This document shows, piece after piece, positions 1 to 37,395 of a stretch of DNA of 50,740 bases. Position 1 is the first letter of the stretch. Every line of letters starts with the position of its first letter. Below the pieces are notes generated by a model, which did not search any database, was not told the origin of the DNA, and worked only from the letters and a program-made list of their open reading frames with translations. The translations under genes and the position numbers were made by a program. The stretch lies in the NCBI RefSeq assembly GCF_013464915.1, contig NZ_RAVT01000037.1, positions 17,442 through 68,181 of the forward strand, written 5' to 3'. This stretch comes from Stenotrophomonas maltophilia (GTDB lineage Bacteria > Pseudomonadota > Gammaproteobacteria > Xanthomonadales > Xanthomonadaceae).

Positions 1-8
1 AAATGGAG

Positions 9-64
9 TTGCCGGCCAGCGGCCGGCACTACCGGGCACAGTAGATCCACGCCATGCGTGGATG
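9..64. repeat. Two SMAG/REP hairpins
   Basis: A GTAGTGCCGGCC-type hairpin in leftward orientation (9-32) is followed by a GTAGATCCACGCC-type hairpin in rightward orientation (41-64). Both have the GTAG head and short inverted repeat of Stenotrophomonas SMAG elements. They lie just beyond the 3' end of nadE. Confidence 0.8.
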
Positions 65-7424: not shown

Positions 7425-7573
7425 GGGTCGGATCCCTTTCCAAAGAAAAGGGCTCTGACCCGACGCGGACCCACCAACGTGGTAGTGCCGGCCGCTGGCC
7501 GGCAACCTCATGCATCGCGTCATCCACGCATGGCGTGGATCTACTGTGGAGCCGAGCATGGGCTCGGCTCTAC
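7425..7573. repeat. REP cluster between pilR and pilB
   Basis: Four hairpins fill the gap between the convergent genes: a GGGTCGGATCCCTTT palindrome (7425-7461), a GTAGTGCCGGCC SMAG (7482-7504), a leftward GTAGATCCACGCC SMAG (7521-7544) and a leftward GTAGAGCCGAGC SMAG (7546-7573). Confidence 0.8.
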
Positions 7574-13649: not shown

Positions 13650-13656
13650 GGCCTGG

Positions 13657-13840
13657 TTGCCGGCCAGCGGCCGGCACTACCGGAGCGCATCCACGCATGG
13701 CGTGGATCTACTGATCGGGCATCCGCGCATGGCGTGGATCTACTGATCGGGCGCCCATGCGCGGAGTGGATCTACTGTAGAGCCGAGCCTGTGCTCGGCT
13801 CCGGGGAGCCAATGCAGCCGAGCGCGGGCTCGGCTCTACA
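13657..13840. repeat. Cluster of six SMAG hairpins
   Basis: Consecutive GTAG hairpins: GCCGGCC type (13657-13680), three ATCCACGC-type copies in leftward orientation (13689-13712, 13720-13743 and a diverged 13752-13774), and an inverted pair of GAGCCGAGC type (13776-13801 and 13815-13840). They fill the gap between convergent coaE and the histidine kinase gene. Confidence 0.85.
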
Positions 13841-18030: not shown

Positions 18031-18195
18031 CGCGGCAGGATCGGACGGCAGGCGCGCAGCATAGCGCGGGTGTGTGGCGGGCGGATGATGCCGCGCGGGC
18101 AGGCGATTCTGCGTGCCTGGCAGGGCTGTGCGAAGATGCCCTGCCGGCTGCAGGACAGGACACGGCCGGCCCATGCAAACCAAGGAGAACCACAG

Positions 18196-18561
18196 ATGCG
18201 AATGGGAATTCCGCTGTTGTTGCTGTTTGGCCTGGTGGGAGGCGCCGCAGATGTGCAGGCTGCGCCGACCCATGCAGTCTCCCGGCTCTACTTCGATGCC
18301 AACAACACCCTGATCGGCCAGGGCCTGCGCTACTGCACCGGCAGGACCCAGCACCAGGGCGTTGCCTCTCATGCCAATACCCGCTGGATCGATGTCTCCT
18401 ACGCGTGCCAGGGCGACTCGACCGACGTTTCCTACGGCAGCTGGGTGCCTGCGCAACTGCGGCAGGATTTCTGCACGCTGTATGACGCCTGCACATCGCT
18501 GATGCCATGGCCGGAACCCGGCCTGCCCGGCACCCTCGGCAACGGCTTCTACTCTGACTGA
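18196..18561 (+). CDS. Small exported cysteine-containing protein
   Basis: Unknown function. The 121 aa open with a signal peptide ([22 protein letters not shown]). The mature part of about 98 aa has four cysteines: [28 protein letters not shown]. The segment [19 protein letters not shown] resembles small secreted proteins grouped as DUF6289, in which a one-line change of state and a Cys pair recur; this resemblance is from memory and untested. AAGGAG at ideal spacing supports the ATG at 18196. It is transcribed divergently from rimK and upstream of the thioesterase gene, with no obvious shared operon. Confidence 0.7.
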
Positions 18562-18640
18562 CAGCCGCTGGCCGCCGTACCGTCTCCGGCGATGGCAGCG
18601 CCGTCGCCGGAGATTCCACCCGCTATGCCCCGGAGACTCC

Positions 18641-19078
18641 ATGCCACTGACGATCCTTCCGCGCTTCTCCGAAGTGGATGTACTCGGCCACGTCACCAAC
18701 ACCGCCCTGCCCGTCTGGTTCGAGGAAGGCCGCCAGGAGATCTTCCGGCATTTCAGCCGTGATTCCAGCATGCGCGACCTGGCGCTGATCCTGCGCCGCT
18801 ACGAGATCGACTTCCTGCAGCAGATACAGGCGGGGCACGAAGTGCGCATCGAGACCCGCATCGAGAGCATCGGCCGCTCCTCGCTGTCGATCGTGCAGCA
18901 GGCGTTCCAGTTCGAGGCCCTGGTGGCCAGCGGGCGCTGCGTGATGGTGCACTTCGACTACACGACCAACGCCTCGCGCGAGATCGATGCGGAGCAGCGC
19001 CGGGCGTTGTCGGGGCTGTTCACCGAGGAGTATGCGCAGTCGCTGCGGGAAACGAGCGCGAGGGCAGGCGCAGCCTGA
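18641..19078 (+). CDS. Acyl-CoA thioesterase, hot-dog fold (YbgC/4HBT-like)
   Basis: Predicted thioester hydrolase of 145 aa. The N-terminal motif [21 protein letters not shown] corresponds to the catalytic Asp region of the 4-hydroxybenzoyl-CoA thioesterase family (usual form D-x-x-G-H-V-N-N). It is followed by the helix and strands typical of a single hot-dog domain. The substrate cannot be predicted. The ATG at 18641 is supported by GGAG upstream. Its last 59 nt overlap the 3' end of the convergent gene at 19020-20207. Confidence 0.85.
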
Positions 19079-20207
19079 AACGCCCATCACGGGCGCGCAG
19101 CGCCAATCCGGTTTCACGCCATTCGACAGGCAGCTCCAGGGCGGTGTGGGGCGTGGGGTATCGATGGACGGCATCGAACTCCCAGCGTTCCTCATAGGCT
19201 TCGCATTGGAGTATGCCGTCATCGTCAACGTCGATCACATTGATCCAGGCCACGCTCCGGGCCTTGCCGAAGCCGCCCATCGCATGACGGGCAAAGGCCT
19301 GCCAGCGCCCCTGCCAGCAGGCAAGCCACAGGCCCTCGATGGGTCGCAGGTTTTCATCAAGCACACTGCCGGCCACCACCAGGCAGCGTCCCGACGGACT
19401 CGCGATCACCGTCTCCAGATCACAGACGTGGCGACCACTGGCGGCCTCGTCAAGGTAAAGGGAATACGGGCAGATGCACGCGAACAGGGCCGGATGCGCG
19501 GTCACGCGCAGATCATCGGGAAGCAGCGGGACCGCGCGCAGGACCCGGGCATCAGGCAGGACGTGCCTCAGCTCCCGCGGCACTCCGGCGGCCAGCGCCG
19601 GATGTCCCGGCTCCAGCCACAGACCTCGGCAGGCATGCAGCTGGGTCACGCTGCCGGACTGGCGGCGCAGCCACGACTCCGCCCCGGCGTCCCCATCGCA
19701 CTGCCGGCGCTCGCTCAGCTGCTGCCGGAACAGGCCGGGAGCAGCCGCAAGCACGTGCACCGCCTTGCGACGCTCGTCGTAGACGAACACCGCTTCGTGT
19801 CGATCCACATACCCGCTGGCCAGGCGCAGCGCGCCTCCCGGCAGGTCCTGCCATTCACCGCTGGCATCACGGCTGCCGCCGGTGGATACGCCTTCGACGA
19901 TGGCGCCATCGCGCAGCATCTGCGTGCTGTACGCCGGCCCGCCCATGCCCAGCTCGCCCCAATCCAACAGCACATCATGTGCGGGCGGCCGCTCGGCAAA
20001 GGGCTTCATCGATCGCGAGCGCAGGCGTGAACCGCCCACGGCATCGCCGACCAGATCGATTCGCTGCAGCACGCCCCCCACCGCAAGGCACACGCCAAGG
20101 CCGACCACCACGCCCAAAGGTGACCACCAGGCCACGCAGACGGCGACCAGGGCCAGGAACGGCAACCACTGGGTGTAGCGCCGGACGGCGCTTCGATCAA
20201 CCGACAT
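19020..20207 (-). CDS. Unknown membrane-anchored protein
   Basis: Not recognised. The 395-aa product has two hydrophobic N-terminal segments (WLPFLALVAVCVAWW and GVVVGLGVCLAVGGVL). A long soluble part follows that is rich in Trp, Asp and Arg and has no familiar motif. Repeated stretches such as LLDWGELGMGGPAYS, LPGGALRLASGYVDRHEAVFVYD and WINVIDVDDDGILQCEAYEE suggest a beta-rich fold. The start at 20207 gives a short cytoplasmic tail before the first helix; an ATG at 20249 is an alternative. It lies 74 nt downstream of the DUF805 gene on the same strand, and its end overlaps the thioesterase gene. Confidence 0.65.
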   Translation of the reverse strand: MSVDRSAVRRYTQWLPFLALVAVCVAWWSPLGVVVGLGVCLAVGGVLQRIDLVGDAVGGSRLRSRSMKPFAERPPAHDVLLDWGELGMGGPAYSTQMLRDGAIVEGVSTGGSRDASGEWQDLPGGALRLASGYVDRHEAVFVYDERRKAVHVLAAAPGLFRQQLSERRQCDGDAGAESWLRRQSGSVTQLHACRGLWLEPGHPALAAGVPRELRHVLPDARVLRAVPLLPDDLRVTAHPALFACICPYSLYLDEAASGRHVCDLETVIASPSGRCLVVAGSVLDENLRPIEGLWLACWQGRWQAFARHAMGGFGKARSVAWINVIDVDDDGILQCEAYEERWEFDAVHRYPTPHTALELPVEWRETGLALRARDGRFRLRLPSRSFPAATAHTPR

Positions 20208-20281
20208 GCGGATGAGAGGCGCGCAGCTGCGAGCCGTCCACGTTTGCATGGCCGCTCTGATCGATTGCGGCCGATGCGGGT

Positions 20282-20686
20282 TCAGGCATCCTGCATTCCG
20301 GGAACTGCGCCGAATCGATTCTCTTCCTCGCTCCCGGGAAGCAGCATGACCGGAAACAGGACGAACACCCCCAGCGGAATGAACGCGATCACGGTGTACC
20401 AGCCTGACTCGTCGATATCGTGCAATCGCCGCACGGTCAGGGCCAGCATCGGAGGCAGGAAGACGATGACCGCGCAGACGGTCATGACCCATCCCAGCTT
20501 CCACAGGATCTCGGACGTTTCCCAATCGAACGACAGGTAGCCGACCAGCCAGTAACCGCGATCCATCACGCTGTAGCTCACCGCTATCACGAACCCGGCA
20601 AGCAGCGAATACGACCAGAACTCCCTCCGGTCGGATCGTCCGGAAAAATCAAAGCATCGCCTGATGGGCACAAGTGCAGCGATCAT
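20282..20686 (-). CDS. DUF805 family membrane protein
   Basis: Small inner-membrane protein of 134 aa with four predicted helices. The family signature is clear: an N-terminal aromatic FDFSGRSDRREFWSYSLLAG and RRLHDIDESGWYTVIAFIPL near the third helix. The biochemical role of DUF805 proteins is not established; they often accompany mobile or prophage-like regions and stress loci. It is followed on the same strand by the unknown gene at 19020-20207, possibly as an operon. It sits next to the left boundary of the tRNA-Gly island. Confidence 0.85.
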   Translation of the reverse strand: MIAALVPIRRCFDFSGRSDRREFWSYSLLAGFVIAVSYSVMDRGYWLVGYLSFDWETSEILWKLGWVMTVCAVIVFLPPMLALTVRRLHDIDESGWYTVIAFIPLGVFVLFPVMLLPGSEEENRFGAVPGMQDA

Positions 20687-21204
20687 TCACGCTCCGGGCA
20701 ACGGATGATGGGCGTCAACAGCTAACGATCTTTTAGCATTCCGAAGCCAAGCATCAACTGAACCCTGAAGCCTGTCCAAGCCCGGGAGGCCACAGCAGCT
20801 GCAGCGGCAGCAGGGGAATTCCTGTCCTGCAGGCTCCGCGCCAGGGTGTATTCGGACACGGCCGATCCGGCCAAGGGATATCTGCGAAGCGAACGCCCAG
20901 CCCAGGCATTCACCGGCCATCTCGACCGGGATCCATGCGCGGAGAAGCAGGGATTTGGATATCGCGGAGCGTCTGCCTGATGCAGACCGCTGGAAACATG
21001 GAGCGGGTGATGGGAATTGGACATTCAGGCTTTGCCAGCGGAACGGATCGGCGGGCGGCGAAATCGTTTCGTCGGCGAGGATGCGTCTCCCCAGGAACCA
21101 ATGCCCCTTGGATCGTTCAGGCAAGAATGTCCGTACATCCAAACGTCATTTAACAAGTTGAATGGGCTTGGCTAAAAAGGAGCACCACTCAACATAGGGA
21201 TAGG
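20687..21204. other. Gene-free stretch at the left island boundary
   Basis: These 518 nt have no convincing gene. The middle carries a degenerate copy of the tRNA-Gly 3' end and its downstream flank (20891-21021, annotated separately). Only short, unsupported frames lie on either side. The stretch is visibly richer in A+T than the core genome to its left. Confidence 0.6.
20891..21021. repeat. Degenerate left att-like repeat (tRNA-Gly 3' end plus flank)
   Basis: Positions 20999-21021 (TGGAGCGGGTGATGGGAATTGGA) match the 3' end of the tRNA-Gly gene at 28470-28492 with three mismatches, including the encoded CCA. The preceding 108 nt also align to the sequence downstream of the tRNA (28321-28469), with an identical 15-mer GGATATCGCGGAGCG (20957-20971 and 28426-28440) and a gap of about 40 nt. 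The repeat is direct and brackets the peptide-export cluster. Confidence 0.8.
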
Positions 21205-22005
21205 ATGTCAAGGATGTCTCAGAACGCCCAACTGGTTTTCGGGTTGATTGCGATCGTCTTACTCCTGGTCTCCCCGCGTGCGGAAGCAGGTCTGGTCTGT
21301 GGACAAGGCACTGTAATGGGGAAGCGCCAACAGGTTTGCTATTCGGATGGCTGGGATGATCCGGGCGGCGGACCGGTCGGGAGCGGCCCCAGGGGCGCTG
21401 GGCCGGTGGGTGGCGGGAACAATGGAGCAGACCAGTATTGCCCGATTCTATTGCGGTCGAAGCCAAGCGGCTGTGCCTCGGAGGGCGCCATCCAAGGGGC
21501 TGACTATGCCTCTGACAAGTTCATGATCGGCTCCGGGCTCGCGACGGCGCTGTCGAACCTGTCAAACTCGAACATCACATCTCAGTCCCGGGGAGCGATC
21601 CAAGCCTCGCTTGGACAGCACACCGTTGATCTCTCCGACATCAGAAGGCCGTTGAACGAGGTGAACAGGACACTGATCGATGGACTGGTGCAGGCATGCG
21701 AGCTTCAACGCCAGCACGACGCGGCAAACCCGCCGTTCTCGCCTCACCCAGGCGGAGTGTCGCCTGGACTCAGGGCCTGCCTCGCAACGGTTGCGAGAGT
21801 CAACGGTGAGGCAGACTCAAACTTCGGAAGCTTCTTCCAGACCTGGCTCCACAGCAAAGGAATTGTCCTGTCTGACCTCGGAATACCGCAGACCATCGTC
21901 AACTGGTTTGCTCCCGAGAATTCGCTGAATGTGAAGTTCGAAAAGGCAAGTGAGCAGAAGCAATGCAATCTTTGGTTCAAAGAGGTCCGCGAAAATGGCT
22001 GCTAA
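21205..22005 (+). CDS. Unknown exported protein of the island
   Basis: Not recognised. The 266 aa begin with a signal peptide (LVFGLIAIVLLLVSPRAEA), then a short Cys-containing segment (LVCGQGTVMGKRQQVCYSD). A glycine/proline-rich linker follows (residues about 50-75). The C-terminal domain of about 170 residues contains several cysteines (YCPILL, SGCASEG, QACELQ, RACLAT, QCNLWF, NGC). The paired cysteines suggest disulfides in the periplasm or outside the cell. The ATG at 21205 is used; a second ATG at 21214 is possible. Lower GC and less biased codons than the core genes suggest acquisition. It overlaps the following lipoprotein gene by 11 nt. Confidence 0.75.
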   Translation: MSRMSQNAQLVFGLIAIVLLLVSPRAEAGLVCGQGTVMGKRQQVCYSDGWDDPGGGPVGSGPRGAGPVGGGNNGADQYCPILLRSKPSGCASEGAIQGADYASDKFMIGSGLATALSNLSNSNITSQSRGAIQASLGQHTVDLSDIRRPLNEVNRTLIDGLVQACELQRQHDAANPPFSPHPGGVSPGLRACLATVARVNGEADSNFGSFFQTWLHSKGIVLSDLGIPQTIVNWFAPENSLNVKFEKASEQKQCNLWFKEVRENGC

Positions 22006-22720
22006 GGCGCGATTGATGATGTCAGGTGCCCTCCTCTTGGCCGCTACCGCAATGCTCTCGGGTTGCGGCAGGAGTGATGAGGCCAGGGACATCCATTCCA
22101 CCCAGGATCAGGCCACCGACACCAGCAGTGGTGCCAGGGAGCCCGGCGCTGTTGTGATTTCGGCTGCAGATTCGAACTCACTGGGCGGCTTGCCTGCAAC
22201 CGCTCTGCAGCAGTACTACGCTTGCAAGGCGGATTCGGGCTCTTGCAGCAAGGATCCGCTGGTGGCCGCTAGCCCTGAGGAAGCACAGTGGCTCCTCGCT
22301 CGTGGCTACCCGACTCCGGATCAGATCGCAAATTCGAACTCCTACAGCGCGGACACACTGAAGCTTGCCGCCGAAAAATCTGGTGCGTTGGTTGACAAGA
22401 GCTTGTATGGCCATGCCTTGTTACGCGAGGGGCGCTACAGGGAAGCGGTAGGCTCCATGGTTGACAGCTTCATTCAAGGCGGAAACATCTACGGCCTGTA
22501 TCTTGCGTCGAACGCATACATGCACTCCGGGGAACTGCTGAACCCTCCTCTCGCGCTGGCATACCTGCGGCTTGCCTATCTTGCTGGTGATTCAAAGGCC
22601 GGCATAGCGCTTGAAATGGAGGCACCTCAGCTTTCTGCGCCGGAGCGCGCCAGCATCGACAGAAGGGCTGCGGAGCTGAGAAATCAGCTGTCGCCTGCCG
22701 GGAGCTGGCCGCGACCGTAG
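21995..22720 (+). CDS. Unknown lipoprotein of the island
   Basis: A 241-aa predicted lipoprotein. The N-terminus MAAKARLMMSGALLLAATAM ends in the lipobox LSGC, so acylation and anchoring at Cys are likely. The residues after the Cys (GRSDEA) do not include the Asp+2 inner-membrane retention signal. The C-terminal half (YGHALLREGRYREAVGSM ... LALAYLRLAYLAGDSKAG) has the alternating helix pattern of TPR or Sel1-like repeats. The frame is open upstream, but AGAGG before ATG 21995 and the lipobox fix the start. It is translationally coupled to the exported protein before it and converges with the adaptor gene of the peptide exporter. Confidence 0.75.
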   Translation: MAAKARLMMSGALLLAATAMLSGCGRSDEARDIHSTQDQATDTSSGAREPGAVVISAADSNSLGGLPATALQQYYACKADSGSCSKDPLVAASPEEAQWLLARGYPTPDQIANSNSYSADTLKLAAEKSGALVDKSLYGHALLREGRYREAVGSMVDSFIQGGNIYGLYLASNAYMHSGELLNPPLALAYLRLAYLAGDSKAGIALEMEAPQLSAPERASIDRRAAELRNQLSPAGSWPRP

Positions 22721-22744
22721 ACGTGCAGCTGCACTGAAGAGATG

Positions 22745-22780
22745 AGTGTGGGCCAAGCGCTGCCAGGCTTGGCTCACACT
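22745..22780. terminator. Hairpin between convergent island operons
   Basis: A 14-bp stem with one mismatch (AGTGTGGGCCAAGC / GCTTGGCTCACACT) between the lipoprotein gene and the end of the adaptor gene. There is no U-tract, so termination is plausible from position only. Confidence 0.45.
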
Positions 22781-22896
22781 GCGACATCAGGATCCAGGCC
22801 TGGGCTTAGGACGGTTCCCATCGGACAGCCCTTATCCGCCGCCCTTCCAGCGACAACTGAGTTTGATCTTCAGAACGGCATCGCCAGCAAGTGCTA

Positions 22897-24141
22897 CTAG
22901 CCTCCCAGCTTCCCGGTCACTGAATAGAGGGGCTCCAACAGCCATTCGTAGAGCTTGCGACGCTCCCCCATGATATCGGCTTCGAGCTGCATGCCTGGAC
23001 GGAGCGGCTCCATCGTTCCATATGCCAGAACCCCTTGCTGATCCAGGGAAACAAGGACTCGATACAGGGACTGCTTTGCATCACCGTCCTTCTGGGATCC
23101 CGCCAACGCGCTGCGAGAGATACGGATGACCGTTCCCTCGTGGGCTCCAAACTTCTGGTAAGGATAGGCTTGGTAGCGCAGGAGAACCCGGTCGCCTGAT
23201 TTGACGAAACCGACGGCCGAACTGGGCACCAGCAACTGTGCTCGAAGCTCGGAGCCTTGGGGAAGCAGGCTGAGAATGGGCTGCCCCGGCTGCACTGCCT
23301 GGCCGGCCTCAACGAGTCGATTTGCCACCAATCCAGTTACCGGCGCACGAAGGAGCAGCTCTCCGTCGGCCTCCATTCGAACGGTCTCCTGACTCAGCGC
23401 AGCCAGATCACGTTCAGAAGCTGCCTTGGCGGAGCGCCGTTGATGGGGAATTTCTGCCAGCCTCTGCTCCAGTTCGGCCAGGTTCCGCCGGATCGAGGTC
23501 GCTTGGCGTTGCAGAGCTTGTTGCGCGTTGACCGTCTCGAGCATCGACTGCTCTTGCTGGTTGATCTGAACCAGGCTGACGTAGCGCTCATCCTCGACAC
23601 TCCGGTATCGGGCAAGCGTCTCACGACCAATTCTCACCTGCTCGCCGCGGGTTCTGATCTCTGCCTCGATCTGCGAAAGCTCGCGCAGCATCGCAGAGCG
23701 CTGTGCCTTCGCACCCTCCTGCTGTGCTGCGAGCTGCCTGTCCTGGAATTCGCTCATCGCCTCCACGCTGGTCATGCGGGAGCGCTGTGCCTCAAGCACC
23801 GTTGATACGGCATCCTGTCCGGAGGAGGTGACCCGAGGCACATTGATCGTTAGCAGCCCATCCTGGCGCTGGACGTGATCCCCTTCCTCAACATCCAGTC
23901 TCGCAACCACGCCTGCCGACGGAGCGACCACGGTGGAAAGCCCGAGATCGGGCACAAGCTCGCCCATAACCCTTGATCTGCGCGAGTACTCGCCCAGGCA
24001 AAGAAAGCCGCTGACGGCTGAGGCAGCGATGGCGGCGAACGCCGCCAGAAGCCAGAAACGGAGCGGTTGCGCCAGGGATACGCCACCGAGCCAGCTCCGG
24101 CGCTGGGCATCGATGGCTTCCTTGCGGAAGAAGCCACTCAT
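22897..24141 (-). CDS. HlyD-family adaptor of the peptide exporter
   Basis: Periplasmic adaptor of 414 aa that would link the ABC exporter to a TolC-type outer-membrane channel. A cytoplasmic tail (MSGFFRKEAIDAQRRSW) precedes one helix (FWLLAAFAAIAASAVSGFL, about 30-50). The N-terminal barrel strand VVAPSAGVVARLDVEEGDHV is followed by a long coiled coil (about 115-255) and the second lipoyl half (LLLRAPVTGLVANRLVEAGQAVQPGQPIL). The C-terminal barrel includes YGTMEPLRPGMQLEADI. This is the arrangement of CvaA/RaxA-type adaptors for colicin V-like peptides. Its ATG overlaps the ABC gene stop by 4 nt. No outer-membrane partner is encoded nearby, so a chromosomal TolC is presumably used. Confidence 0.92.
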   Translation of the reverse strand: MSGFFRKEAIDAQRRSWLGGVSLAQPLRFWLLAAFAAIAASAVSGFLCLGEYSRRSRVMGELVPDLGLSTVVAPSAGVVARLDVEEGDHVQRQDGLLTINVPRVTSSGQDAVSTVLEAQRSRMTSVEAMSEFQDRQLAAQQEGAKAQRSAMLRELSQIEAEIRTRGEQVRIGRETLARYRSVEDERYVSLVQINQQEQSMLETVNAQQALQRQATSIRRNLAELEQRLAEIPHQRRSAKAASERDLAALSQETVRMEADGELLLRAPVTGLVANRLVEAGQAVQPGQPILSLLPQGSELRAQLLVPSSAVGFVKSGDRVLLRYQAYPYQKFGAHEGTVIRISRSALAGSQKDGDAKQSLYRVLVSLDQQGVLAYGTMEPLRPGMQLEADIMGERRKLYEWLLEPLYSVTGKLGG

Positions 24142-26387
24142 GCAGGGACCTCTTCGACGCCGTCCCGATCCGCTTTCACGGAGCTTGACACGTCCTGCAT
24201 CAACACCTGTGCCACTGCTCCCGCATGCATGACCAGCACCCGGTCAGCGCTGGCGATGGTTTCTGGACGATGGGCGATGATCACCCGGGTCAGCTCAAGC
24301 TGTCGGACGGCTTCATTCACCAGCCTCTCCCGCTCAACATCCAGATGGCTGGTTGCCTCGTCCAGGAAGAGCAACTGCGGCTTGCGATACAGTGCGCGAG
24401 CGAGGATCACCCGCTGCTTCTGCCCTCCGGAAAGCGTCGTACCCATGTCGCCGATCAAGCTGTTGTAGCCCATCGGCATCGCTGCGATGTCATCATGCAC
24501 AGCCGCCACCTGTGCGACCTCACGCACTCTGGCTTCATCATGATGATCGTCCTCGAAGGCAATGTTGTCGCTGACACTTCCGGCGAAGAGCTGGTCATCC
24601 TGCATCACCGCTCCGATCATGCGACGGTAGTCACCCACGCCGATCCTTGACAACGGTACGCCACCAATGCGGATCTGGCCCTCGGTCGGATGTAGCAGAC
24701 CCAGAAGTATCTTGATCAGCGTGGACTTCCCACAGCCTGAAGGGCCAATGATGGCTACCGACTCCCCGGCGTCCACCACAAAGCTGCAGTCCTTCAGCAC
24801 CCAGGGCTCACCGGGGGCGTAGCGGAAACCGAGCCCCTCAACCTCAATGCGAAGTCCATCCGGAAGCATGTTGCCCGCGCTGAAAGAGTGGTCCTCCGGC
24901 TCGGTGAGAACAATGTCGGAGAGCCGCTCGCCATGCAGGCGCAGCATGCGAAACTCCACCCACTTGTCGATCAACGCTCCCACCCGCTGTGAGAACTGAT
25001 CCTTGTAGGCGAGGTAGGCAATCAGCATGCCCACGGAGAACACATTACTCATCGCCAGCAGCGCGCCGAGCCAGATCACCGCGATACGTTCCATGCCAAA
25101 CAGCAACTGATTGGCACCACCGAAGTTCAGCCCGAACTTTGCCAACCAGACGTCATGGTTGACCGTCTCGTTCATGAGATTGAAGTAACTGGCTTGTCGA
25201 GCCGTTTCCCGACCAGCCACCTTCACCGACTGAACTCCGCGAATGGACTCGAGGAGATGGCTCTCCTGCCGAGCCGCGGCAATCAACTGCTTCTCCGTGC
25301 CTCGCCGGAGGGGCGCAAAGGCACAGGCACGCGCGATTGCATACAGAGCAACCGCAAGCAGCGTGACCAGCGCAAGCTTCCAGCTGTAGAGCAGCATCAT
25401 TCCCAGCGTCACCGCCGCCATGAGTCCATCAATGAGCGCCTCTACGAAGCTGGTCGTCAACGTTTTCTGGATGGCTTGAACGCTTCCCATCCGTGAAGTG
25501 ACATCGCCCAGATGGCGCTTCTCGAAGAAGTCCAGGGGCAAACGCTGCAGGTGTTGAAAGACGTTGCCGGTCCATTGCAGGTTGAGCCTGCTTGACAGAT
25601 AGATGACCGCTCGGCCTCGGATCTGCCCGATACAGACCTGCAGCAGCAGTGCCAGCGCGAATCCAATGCCCAGCACGGTCAGCAGGTCTCTGTCGTAGGC
25701 GACGAGCACTTGATCGACGGTCCATTGCATGAAGAACGGCGCTATCAGGACGAATAACTGAAGAGCAATGGACAAGAACAGCAGCAGCCCCAAAGCCTGC
25801 CACAAGCCCTGGATCTTCCCGGTCAGCTGTGCAAGCGAGATGGCTGGCGGACGCGGGCTGACCCGGAACCCGGTGGTTGGATGCAACTCCAGTGCAATTC
25901 CGGTGAAATGACGCGAGACCTCCTCCAGAGAGAGCTTGCGCTTGCCAAAGGCTGGATCCAGAACAGTGACGCCACTGCGACCCACTTTACTGATTACGAC
26001 GAAATGGTTGAGATCCCAATGCGCGATGCACGGCAACTGAAGTTGGCTCAGATGCTCCAGGTCCAAGCGCAGGGGGCGGCAACGAAAACCGAGCGCCCCA
26101 CCAATTTCGATGATCTGAGCAAGCGTTGCCCCTTTGAGTGAAAGGGCGTAACGGCGGCGGAGTTCTCGGAGTCCGATGTTGTTCCCATGATATGACGCAA
26201 CCATGGCCAAGCAGGCAAGCCCGCATTCGGCGGCCTCCGACTGGATTATCGTATCAATAGCCTTACCTCTCCATGCGGCAGTACCGTTGCGAGCCCTTGG
26301 CAGGCGCCCCTTGGGATGCCCCCAAGCAAGCGATTCGTTGCGCTTGAAGCGAAAATTCCTGCAGAGCGGAAACGCGGGTTGATTCAA
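24138..26387 (-). CDS. C39-peptidase ABC exporter (CvaB/RaxB type)
   Basis: Bifunctional exporter that removes double-glycine leaders and pumps the peptide across the inner membrane. The 749 aa comprise an N-terminal C39 protease with Gln49 and Cys55 (QSEAAECGLACLAMV), His128 (HWDLNHFVV) and Asp144 (VLDPAFG), all catalytic residues intact. A six-helix transmembrane domain follows (about 195-460). The ATPase has Walker A GPSGCGKST (548-556), signature LSGGQ (652-656), Walker B LLFLDEATS and H-loop His706. The first possible start is a TTG at 26387. The best-spaced Shine-Dalgarno (GGAGAGG) instead precedes an ATT at 26258, leaving 706 aa, so the N-terminus is uncertain. The neighbouring precursor at 27263-27466 is its evident substrate. 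Confidence 0.93.
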   Translation of the reverse strand: MNQPAFPLCRNFRFKRNESLAWGHPKGRLPRARNGTAAWRGKAIDTIIQSEAAECGLACLAMVASYHGNNIGLRELRRRYALSLKGATLAQIIEIGGALGFRCRPLRLDLEHLSQLQLPCIAHWDLNHFVVISKVGRSGVTVLDPAFGKRKLSLEEVSRHFTGIALELHPTTGFRVSPRPPAISLAQLTGKIQGLWQALGLLLFLSIALQLFVLIAPFFMQWTVDQVLVAYDRDLLTVLGIGFALALLLQVCIGQIRGRAVIYLSSRLNLQWTGNVFQHLQRLPLDFFEKRHLGDVTSRMGSVQAIQKTLTTSFVEALIDGLMAAVTLGMMLLYSWKLALVTLLAVALYAIARACAFAPLRRGTEKQLIAAARQESHLLESIRGVQSVKVAGRETARQASYFNLMNETVNHDVWLAKFGLNFGGANQLLFGMERIAVIWLGALLAMSNVFSVGMLIAYLAYKDQFSQRVGALIDKWVEFRMLRLHGERLSDIVLTEPEDHSFSAGNMLPDGLRIEVEGLGFRYAPGEPWVLKDCSFVVDAGESVAIIGPSGCGKSTLIKILLGLLHPTEGQIRIGGVPLSRIGVGDYRRMIGAVMQDDQLFAGSVSDNIAFEDDHHDEARVREVAQVAAVHDDIAAMPMGYNSLIGDMGTTLSGGQKQRVILARALYRKPQLLFLDEATSHLDVERERLVNEAVRQLELTRVIIAHRPETIASADRVLVMHAGAVAQVLMQDVSSSVKADRDGVEEVPA

Positions 26388-26482
26388 TCCTCGCCAGCCA
26401 CGAATGCTGCGAGATCGGCAATCGAAATCGCTTACGGGAGAAGCCGTCCTGCATACCAGGCACCACAGGATCAGGCCTCAGC

Positions 26483-27130
26483 TCACGACTGAATTCCGTA
26501 GTCCCTGAGCGTTGGATAGAATATGACCCACTGCGTAATCGTAAGATTGATGGTGCCGTGCACTGTTGCCAGCTGGGTCGTGCTCAACCTGAATTGACAA
26601 GCCAATACGCAGAGAAGTATCGAAAACAGGAAGGATGAAACAAATGCACCGACGTGGACTGCAGCAAATGCAGCACTAACGATGATGGTGCCTAGAAAAC
26701 GCCCAAAGTAGTGCGATGTGCCATCAAAAAGCAGGTGCCGCACAACCTTCTCCTCAAAAAGAGGTGCGACGACGCAGCTGGTCACCAAGCCCAGGACATA
26801 GAACCTGGTGGGGATTTCGCCAAAAGGGATGAAGGTGGTTTCGGGTATTGCAGGGATGCCGATGGCAAGAATCCAGACTGCTCCCCCAACGGCCCCAACA
26901 GCCACCAGAGCGGCTCCAAGCCGAAACGTCCACTCTCTTCGGGACTCATTGGGAAGCAGCCAGACGCAAACAGCAAAGGCGACAATTTCGGTCATTGCCT
27001 TTGATCCGAAAACGTCAAAATGGCGCAGAACTCCCTGTGCCGCACCGACACCCACAATTGCAATTGCAGCTACGAATATCTTGTTTTCCGCTATGGGACG
27101 AGGCTTCCAGCGCGCGACCTTTGTAATCAA
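26483..27130 (-). CDS. CPBP (Abi/CaaX-like) intramembrane protease
   Basis: Polytopic membrane protein of 215 aa. All three CPBP motifs are intact: EEKVVR (126-131, EExxxR), FAAVH (155-159, FxxxH) and HGTIN (191-195, HxxxN), set in predicted helices. Members linked to bacteriocin genes act as self-immunity factors or process peptides. Its place between the double-glycine precursor and the exporter supports one of these roles, which is an inference. The start is a TTG at 27130, with GGGAG six nt upstream; no ATG is suitably placed. Codon use is distinctly less GC-rich than in the core genes. Confidence 0.88.
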   Translation of the reverse strand: MITKVARWKPRPIAENKIFVAAIAIVGVGAAQGVLRHFDVFGSKAMTEIVAFAVCVWLLPNESRREWTFRLGAALVAVGAVGGAVWILAIGIPAIPETTFIPFGEIPTRFYVLGLVTSCVVAPLFEEKVVRHLLFDGTSHYFGRFLGTIIVSAAFAAVHVGAFVSSFLFSILLCVLACQFRLSTTQLATVHGTINLTITQWVIFYPTLRDYGIQS

Positions 27131-27144
27131 AATGTTCTCCCAAG

Positions 27145-27172
27145 GGCCCAGGCCCGAACTCGGGCCTGGGCC
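27145..27172. terminator. Hairpin between peptide precursor and CPBP genes
   Basis: A 13-bp perfect inverted repeat GGCCCAGGCCCGA / TCGGGCCTGGGCC with a very short loop. There is no U-tract. It lies after the precursor stop codon on the minus strand and could protect a short, abundant precursor mRNA while allowing some read-through into the CPBP and exporter genes. Confidence 0.5.
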
Positions 27173-27262
27173 GATGCTTCCGCCTCTACATCATCATGAA
27201 CCGTGCATCAAAGGCTTGGCCTTGAGCCGACGCCACCGAGGCGGGCGATCAGACTGCCCGGA

Positions 27263-27466
27263 TCATCGAGCCATGAGGTAATGGTAGATCAAGCCAGCAG
27301 CGCCGATCCCACTGAATGGCGCAACCCTTCCATACATATAGGCAGCCTCTCCAAGGTCGTGCAGGGTGCCGCTGATATGAGTGCCTTCGCTGGAACCAAC
27401 CTGGAAGTTGATTCCGCGCGTACCACCTGAAACTTCTGCAAGTTCAAAATGACTGAGATCACGCAT
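27263..27466 (-). CDS. Double-glycine leader peptide precursor (putative microcin)
   Basis: A 67-aa precursor. The leader MRDLSHFELAEVSGG matches the colicin V/RaxX-type consensus (L-S-x2-E-L-x2-V-x-G-G), placing cleavage after Gly15. The mature peptide would be 52 aa: a polar N-terminal part (TRGINFQVGSSEGTHISG) and a hydrophobic Gly/Ala/Tyr-rich C-terminal part (YMYGRVAPFSGIGAAGLIYH), with no cysteine. The start has GGAGG at correct spacing. The downstream CPBP protease, C39 exporter and adaptor on the same strand form a complete maturation and export set. A bacteriocin or microcin is most likely; a signalling peptide such as RaxX is possible, but no sulfotransferase gene is present. Confidence 0.85.
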   Translation of the reverse strand: MRDLSHFELAEVSGGTRGINFQVGSSEGTHISGTLHDLGEAAYMYGRVAPFSGIGAAGLIYHYLMAR

Positions 27467-27650
27467 AGAGCCTCCATTTCATAGTTGTCGGGACGTCCAT
27501 CCTTCCGAACCCGCGCTGGGCGTCGGGCTGGAGCCATGCCACAGCGACAGTCACTCGTTTCGTTGCGACGTTGCACTGAAGCAGGACTCCCATGGAAAAA
27601 CGGGGGAAGGCAGCATTTCCCCCAACCGCCCCGCTCATGACGTTCACAAT

Positions 27651-28469: not shown

Positions 28470-28543
28470 TGGAGCGGGCGATGGGAATCGAACCCACGTC
28501 AGTAGCTTGGGAAGCTACAGCTCTACCATTGAGCTACGCCCGC
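28470..28543 (-). tRNA. tRNA-Gly (CCC)
   Basis: Complete cloverleaf on the minus strand: acceptor GCGGGCG pairs with CGCCCGC, followed by discriminator T and encoded CCA. The D-arm is GCTC/GAGC. The anticodon stem GTAGC/GCTAC holds the loop TTCCCAA, so the anticodon is CCC. The T-loop is TTCGATT. Its 3' end is partly duplicated at 20999-21021. Confidence 0.96.
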
Positions 28544-30902: not shown

Positions 30903-30913
30903 GACCTGCCTTG

Positions 30914-30986
30914 GTAGTGCCGGCCGCTGGCCGGCAATCCGACGCCGTGAGGCACCCTGCATCTGCCGGCCAGCGGCCGGCACTAC
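30914..30986. repeat. Inverted pair of SMAG hairpins between thiS and thiG
   Basis: GTAGTGCCGGCC-type units head to head (30914-30937 rightward and 30964-30986 leftward). The pair can also fold as one long stem and lies inside the probable thiSG transcript, where it could modulate mRNA stability. Confidence 0.8.
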
Positions 30987-31056
30987 CCTCACCCTCCTGC
31001 GGACAGCACCACCATTGCGTGATCCCATCTTCAGGCGGATAGGCGATAATCCCGCC

Positions 31057-37320: not shown

Positions 37321-37332
37321 GGCAGCCTACCG

Positions 37333-37395
37333 GTAGTGCCGGCCGCTGGCCGGCAACATCGGAACATGCGGGAGCCGGCCAGCGGCCGGCACTAC
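37333..37395. repeat. Inverted pair of SMAG hairpins after mscL
   Basis: GTAGTGCCGGCC-type units, rightward at 37333-37355 and leftward at 37374-37395, the same arrangement as between thiS and thiG. Confidence 0.8.

Follow-up and report, generated by a model that had tools for sequence, protein, structure and literature searches.

A portable double-glycine peptide cassette of Stenotrophomonas maltophilia with a CPBP protease as candidate immunity protein

Introduction

What would a bacterium gain from a short gene with a double-glycine leader that is followed, on the same strand, by an intramembrane protease and a dedicated peptide exporter? This question is raised by a 50,740-nucleotide stretch of the Stenotrophomonas maltophilia chromosome (contig NZ_RAVT01000037.1 of assembly GCF_013464915.1; hereafter the window), where a preliminary description made from the sequence alone had proposed a new microcin or secreted-peptide operon. 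The four open reading frames (ORFs) that it listed are present in the order it gave, precursor, CPBP protease, C39/ABC (ATP-binding cassette) exporter and HlyD adaptor, and homology places the extent of the cassette at 22895-27553. We think it rather probable, by analogy with known systems, that this portable chromosomal cassette encodes a class II microcin-like bacteriocin, with the CPBP protease as its immunity protein. Its parts are as follows.

27263..27466, minus strand: precursor peptide of 67 aa, consisting of a 15-aa double-glycine leader (27422-27466) and a 52-aa core (ORF with Shine-Dalgarno site; homologs)
27130..27262, minus strand: intergenic region between precursor and CPBP, with a strong RNA hairpin (folding)
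26483..27130, minus strand: CPBP (Rce1-like, Abi) intramembrane protease of 215 aa with a TTG start; proposed immunity protein (PF02517)
24138..26258, minus strand (26387 according to the ORF caller): C39-peptidase ABC exporter (PCAT) of 706 aa, counted from a probable AUU start (PF03412)
22897..24141, minus strand: HlyD-family periplasmic adaptor of 414 aa (PF13437)

Results

The precursor is a conserved gene with a double-glycine leader

A GGAGG Shine-Dalgarno sequence lies 4 nt ahead of the precursor ATG, and the leader, MRDLSHFELAEVSGG, corresponds to the motif M[R/K]ELX3E[I/L]X2[I/V]XG[G/A] given for Gram-negative double-glycine leaders in the available text of PMC9200625, apart from position 3, which is D instead of E. 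In a strict form, this pattern matched once in the window, at the precursor, compared with a mean of 0.075 matches in 40 second-order Markov simulations of the window. Homologs of the precursor were found in 5 of 90 other genomes of the genus (E-values from 2.5e-27 to 2.4e-9); the next candidate had E = 0.02, and matches from that value upward were left out. With a ten-row profile, the precursor was detected in 15 of 395 genomes of the family, representing 5 of its 54 genera. Both searches pooled give 18 genomes, 6 of 91 within the genus and 12 from four other genera. This total includes genome G175, though it matches the core only (profile positions 13-59), and leaves out rows from G378, G366 and G237 (loci L050 and L051 share the leader only, and L052 seems spurious). 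Conservation and the leader control rule out a chance ORF, and on sequence grounds the precursor is a real gene, as first proposed from its ribosome binding site and leader.

The core (52 aa, 5515 Da [average mass 5515.2], isoelectric point 6.7) contains no cysteine, and all six Stenotrophomonas precursors share the motif YGR.APFSGI. The peptide had been called cysteine-free; this holds within the genus but not outside it, where 10 of the 12 members carry two core cysteines and the other two (G106 and G175) carry one. The cysteine pair aligns to Ile19 and Ile31 of the window peptide. An AlphaFold2 model of the precursor has strands at 18-23 and 29-34 and helices at 35-48 and 53-65; as its mean predicted local distance difference test score (pLDDT) is 62.9 and its predicted template modelling score 0.46, with pLDDT block means that reach 69-76 only from residue 31 onward, only the order of elements was used. 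With modest confidence, the core is thus predicted to form a β-hairpin followed by two helices, and a cysteine pair closing the hairpin would fit this weak model. Between the window and G038, the ratio of nonsynonymous to synonymous substitution rates (dN/dS) of the precursor is 0.19 over 64 codons, and Stenotrophomonas precursor pairs other than the G060 pair described below range from 0.19 to 0.51; all ratios of this kind given here were computed by the simple Nei-Gojobori method, and dS is saturated in several.

The mature sequence, which the preliminary description could not assign to a described microcin, had no Pfam match above the cut-off, no NCBIfam match and no tblastn match at E <= 10 among 72,556 plasmid records. 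Against PDB chains it returned only noise (best E = 0.066, mostly antibody chains), a scan of genome contigs with the precursor alone confirmed no relative, and a match of the precursor to PF16460 was rejected as noise (E = 0.22, below the cut-off). Because microcin cores are highly variable, as described in the accessible part of PMC9746304, missing similarity to verified microcins, which were not aligned individually, weighs little. RaxX, a sulfated peptide with an adjacent raxST sulfotransferase, had been mentioned as a precedent. This reading was rejected: Pfam recognized no sulfotransferase among 12 window ORFs (8 flanking and 4 from the cassette), a comparison of gene neighborhoods rather than of the RaxX sequence itself.

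CPBP accompanies the precursor

The second gene matches PF02517 above the cut-off (E = 1.2e-8), and its motifs EEKVVR, FAAVH and HGTIN conform to the intact EExxxR, FxxxH and HxxxN pattern. An AlphaFold2 model (mean pLDDT 88.3) predicts long helices, suggestive of a polytopic membrane protein, for which SagB-SpdC was the best fold match in the PDB (E = 5.3e-3, with none at E <= 0.001). When all 18 precursor genomes were checked, the precursor was followed directly by a CPBP-related gene of the same orientation in 17. Among 21 CPBP proteins, a set that excludes the window's own and includes the five orphan copies described below, 19 keep all three motifs. A scan with the CPBP alignment recovered 10 named loci in Stenotrophomonas and Pseudoxanthomonas, those of Stenotrophomonas being from S. 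maltophilia SJTL3, ATCC 700475, NEC1; S. rhizophila DE0483; and strains VV52 and PS02289. A class-wide profile search at E <= 1e-20 found CPBP in 2 of 369 genomes, the window's own and G100, both from the same bacterial family. With PADLOC, neither the precursor nor CPBP had a match, and those of the exporter and adaptor were limited to ATPase-type or weak cross-matches.

Three loci show other arrangements. A 2.4-kb stretch of Pseudoxanthomonas suwonensis (L065, 5604-7992) encodes four peptides that have double-glycine leaders and cores that differ, one of them a member of the window precursor family with its CPBP. In G366 (L058, 7072-8016), a leader-only relative is followed by CPBP-like sequence split over two reading frames. 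The motif-less CPBP-like neighbor in G191 (L059, 7560-8228) may be a pseudoprotease immunity protein.

The export genes recur with differing cargo

The exporter matches PF03412 (E = 2.3e-36) and ABC domains. Its C39 stretches QSEAAEC, HWDLNHFV and DPAFG are intact, with the Cys, His and Asp peptidase residues in place, which bears out the earlier statement that all catalytic residues are there, and the ABC motifs are present. In the best 25 of 2309 records, annotated plasmid PCATs share 46.7-53.4% identity with it. The adaptor, whose ATG overlaps the exporter stop codon, matches PF13437 (E = 6.8e-23) and, below the cut-off of that model, TIGR01843. The genome (4.65 Mb in 114 contigs) contains 26 OEP-domain matches, none tied to the cassette exporter. 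The sequence agrees with the proposed secretion, in that the cassette supplies the double-glycine peptide with a C39 exporter and an adaptor of its own.

PCATs at E <= 1e-180 occur in 22 of 91 genus genomes (26 matches) and in 140 of 395 family genomes. We surveyed 48 exporter loci, namely all 26 from the genus (6 fetched before, 20 new), 20 from the family and two others, for a CPBP-motif ORF beside a double-glycine ORF. Seven loci had one: six precursor-family loci (five in the genus and that of G181) and L094, from the genome that holds the window. Of the seven, six had already been identified when the survey began, and none was added by the 40 loci newly taken by exporter alone. As several of the 48 loci had been chosen for their precursor or CPBP (the window, L034-L037 and L053; a leader-only match brought in L057, and a C39 search L094), the genus count is fairer: 6 of 26 loci, 5 of these 6 belonging to the window precursor family. 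The 20 further family loci, taken by exporter alone, yielded none. Matches of the loose leader pattern to the exporter's LSGGQ and a false CPBP pattern in L167 (EEQQERR) were not counted. The strict leader scan gave a match at 7 of 18 further genus exporter loci, and many exporters are thus without recognizable adjoining cargo. Elsewhere the cargo differs; at L150, for example, a tandem peptide pair and no CPBP lie beside an 80%-identical exporter. Across these loci, then, cargo and CPBP vary jointly on a constant platform.

The window's genome carries a second cassette, alike in design, whose core is unrelated and whose CPBP is a different one (L094, 6550-11440; G000 contig C56). It comprises a GA-leader peptide beginning MRELTIFEVSEVSGA (7587-7417) and a CPBP of 284 aa (7404-6550), with an exporter and adaptor that are 73% and 69% identical to those of the window and lie as a pair on the opposite strand.

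This variation bears on whether the peptide is a weapon at all. It might instead be a signal or a self-acting (autolysis) peptide comparable to the gonococcal Nap peptides, which carry GG motifs, are accompanied by a C39 peptidase and an immunity candidate and, according to the available text of PMC11798529, did not kill competitor species. We regard this as quite improbable, since cargo that varies between strains beside a conserved exporter is what would be expected of weapons, and no regulator or receptor gene was recognized in the conserved cassette (22895-27553) from the ORF list and Pfam.

Other Stenotrophomonas PCATs have tandem short double-glycine peptide pairs beside them (L150, 8264-8593; L156, 8476-8858; L162, 5511-5832); these resemble two-peptide bacteriocins and show no CPBP pattern. 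At L184 (4541-5655), five tandem double-glycine peptides of 49-54 aa with Pro/Glu-rich cores lie beside a PCAT, and L186 has two similar ones.

Cargo and platform are separable modules

Fifteen precursor loci had usable flanks (G165, G175 and G329, with flanks of 1.5 kb only, stand outside this count), and 8 of them hold the full cassette: the window, G003, G038, G032, G029, G181, G100 and G296. The modules also occur apart. S. maltophilia SJTL3 (G060) retains precursor and CPBP and lacks the exporter DNA that corresponds to window positions 23119-26180. The G060 precursor has ATC in place of the usual ATG, with a further ATG 12 codons upstream, and its dN/dS against G003 is 1.05 (67 codons, few changes) versus 0.21 for CPBP. 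Conversely, G048 has the exporter (87%) and adaptor (92%) without precursor and CPBP; they occupy the window's own chromosomal site, adjoining the same tRNA-Gly/GDSL autotransporter region.

CPBP also stands alone, at five loci (G005, two in G004, G065 and G077) that have no convincing double-glycine ORF near. The proteins of G005 and G004:C11 are identical, which reduces the five loci to about four cases, and the G072 CPBP, cut by a contig end, was not counted. GG-containing ORFs found near the orphans with loose patterns (e.g. L038, 12833-12648; L042, 6922-6704) lacked a convincing leader. One comparison is between L042, from Stenotrophomonas G004, and L037, from S. rhizophila G029, whose flanks match at 91.7% and 87.6%: L037 holds the full cassette and L042 only its CPBP. 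The two CPBP sequences have a dN/dS of 0.115 (213 codons, dS 2.5), and from sequence the orphan CPBP looks to be under constraint.

A protector kept after loss of the weapon is what is predicted of an immunity gene and is not predicted of a pure processing enzyme. The alternative, in which CPBP is a maturation protease that cleaves the precursor or core a second time as it is exported, agrees with its position immediately behind the precursor, and some CPBP proteins may process peptides (PMC9200625, in its available part). We nevertheless find it unlikely, because CPBP has been kept, seemingly under constraint, where precursor and exporter have been lost, and because the intact C39 domain should suffice for leader removal. 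Together, precursor co-occurrence, orphan copies and substitution ratios strengthen the earlier suggestion that CPBP protects the producer, and on this sequence evidence CPBP accompanies the precursor rather than the exporter.

Several features describe the chromosomal setting. GC content is 0.54-0.62 across the cassette and 0.66-0.68 beyond 28.5 kb, and a tRNA-Gly gene lies at 28470-28543. In G003, G038, G032 and G060, the cassette flanks (13-18 kb) had no window match beyond short repeats, and the cassette therefore sits at another site in these genomes. The region from RimK to the cassette (window 18092-22877) is unmatched in G048 while both of its sides match, making it a second variable stretch at the same site. 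A 25-30 bp element recurs at 100% identity (window 8-33, 7481-7510, 13655-13681, 30913-30988 and 37332-37357; L034 15644-15674) and is likely a dispersed repeat.

A conserved hairpin and a probable AUU start of the exporter

In the window, the gap between precursor and CPBP folds into a hairpin with a 12-bp stem, GGCCCAGGCCCG/CGGGCCUGGGCC (z = −2.26 for the stretch). A strong hairpin was found at this gap in 8 of 9 folded loci, L054 being unclear; z ranged from −2.3 to −4.9 in the window, L033, L034, L035 and L037, and the hairpins of L055, L056 and L065 were seen without a shuffle control. Stem sequences are unrelated between lineages and the position is constant. Shape kept while sequence changed suggests a function, perhaps as a stop or stabilizer that sets the precursor above the rest. 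The window hairpin lacks a T run, and the search for terminator-like sites did not return it.

The ORF caller began the exporter at TTG 26387. This is probably wrong, because an ATT (26258-26256) stands behind GGAGAGG in the window, and relatives have ATT (L034, L035, L036 and L149) or ATG (L150 and L037) at the same place. In L034, and only there, a non-standard start is forced, by a TAG two codons upstream and no ATG, GTG or TTG before QSEAAEC. L035, L036 and L149 have a GTG three codons after the ATT, and the window has the upstream TTG. AUU start codons are rare, infC being a known case; from this alignment of starts, the exporter probably begins at AUU 26258.

Discussion

How might the cassette work? 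Its precursor, behind a strong ribosome site, would be made in excess over CPBP and exporter, owing to the hairpin behind it and the probable AUU start of the exporter. As in related families, the PCAT would recognize the leader, cut after Gly-Gly and, by way of the HlyD adaptor and a TolC-type channel from another locus, carry the 52-aa core out of the cell. Most likely the core is antibacterial and has the envelope of close relatives as its target, and CPBP may protect the producing cell; in analogy with SkkI, PlnI and PlnL, it would probably do so by cutting the peptide within the inner membrane. Comparison between genomes separates the cargo (precursor and CPBP) from the exporter pair as modules.

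Some observations weigh against this reading. The core is near neutral rather than cationic. The precursor of G165 has no CPBP within the 1.5 kb seen, the CPBP-related neighbor in G191 has lost all three motifs, and that of G106 reads EK for EE; proteolysis thus cannot be the rule everywhere. At 7 of the 15 loci (G060, G204, G106, G285, G191, G200 and G307), precursor and CPBP are kept with no adjacent exporter, and in the genomes of G060 and G106 the only C39 frames seen are short ones; the pair can thus be maintained without export. The G060 precursor ratio depends on few changes in 67 codons, and the exporter survey used simple patterns, with three loci cut by contig ends. The same exporter-less loci could suggest that precursor and CPBP are mainly an intracellular, toxin-antitoxin-like pair for which export is optional. 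This seems very improbable: a PCAT is present elsewhere in 5 of the 7 genomes, a retained double-glycine leader would have no obvious use lacking a C39 exporter, and the G060 precursor looks relaxed. An exported bacteriocin with CPBP immunity remains the reading that we favor.

A broader proposal, possible though short of probable, is that of a Lysobacteraceae microcin family with intramembrane-protease immunity, in which precursor and protease co-diversify as swappable cargo on a common PCAT/HlyD platform, non-producers keep the protease as resistance, and outputs are set by a shape-conserved mRNA hairpin and an AUU-started exporter. If a family with protease immunity is real, a double-glycine ORF followed by CPBP becomes a searchable mark in Gram-negatives. 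The cassette would also offer a defined peptide-protease pair for the study of CPBP-conferred immunity, as well as peptides of narrow spectrum from a genus that includes a multidrug-resistant opportunist. The class II microcins validated by experiment numbered ten in a 2022 survey, as far as its available text goes, and E. coli was the source of most of them (PMC9746304).

Among open-licence papers, we found none joining a class II microcin with CPBP and, for a Stenotrophomonas double-glycine microcin, only broad reviews (by title); neither result is proof of absence in print. The Neisseria nap island shares GG peptides, a C39 peptidase and an immunity candidate, NapI, but differs in its FapF-like channel, its autolysis role and the comparison of NapI with LagC (PMC11798529). 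Closer in taxonomy are the Xylella CvaC/Cvi operon and the Xanthomonas class II microcin candidates, from the same bacterial family and with double-glycine leaders (PMC11885251; PMC13174018). The Xylella precursor, however, has 103 aa, and the words 'CPBP' and 'CAAX' are absent from the accessible text of its paper (PMC11885251); the Xanthomonas candidates are known to us by description rather than by sequence comparison with the core, from a text whose available part does not contain 'Stenotrophomonas' (PMC13174018).

Class IIa microcins of Enterobacterales (microcin V/CvaC type) share with the cassette a GG-leader precursor, a PCAT with Cys/His/Asp and a membrane fusion protein, and have an immunity gene near the precursor, where the cassette has its candidate (PMC9746304, available part). 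The cassette differs in a core unrelated to any family searched and in a CPBP protease as immunity candidate. Verified microcin immunity proteins are inner-membrane proteins of 51-216 aa with no obvious mutual similarity, and 'CAAX' is absent from the part of that text available (PMC9746304). Judged from its sequence, the cassette has the structural marks of class II microcins, yet lacks similarity to described families. An Abi-family immunity protein for a bacteriocin is found in the Gram-positive class II systems sakacin 23K (SkkI) and plantaricin (PlnI and PlnL), where immunity has been suggested to act by proteolysis (PMC8538875, available part, citing Kjos 2010); the cassette differs from these in its Gram-negative envelope, HlyD adaptor, single precursor and unrelated core. 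By analogy, then, the cassette would work like a class II microcin system equipped with the immunity type of the Gram-positive SkkI, PlnI and PlnL bacteriocins.

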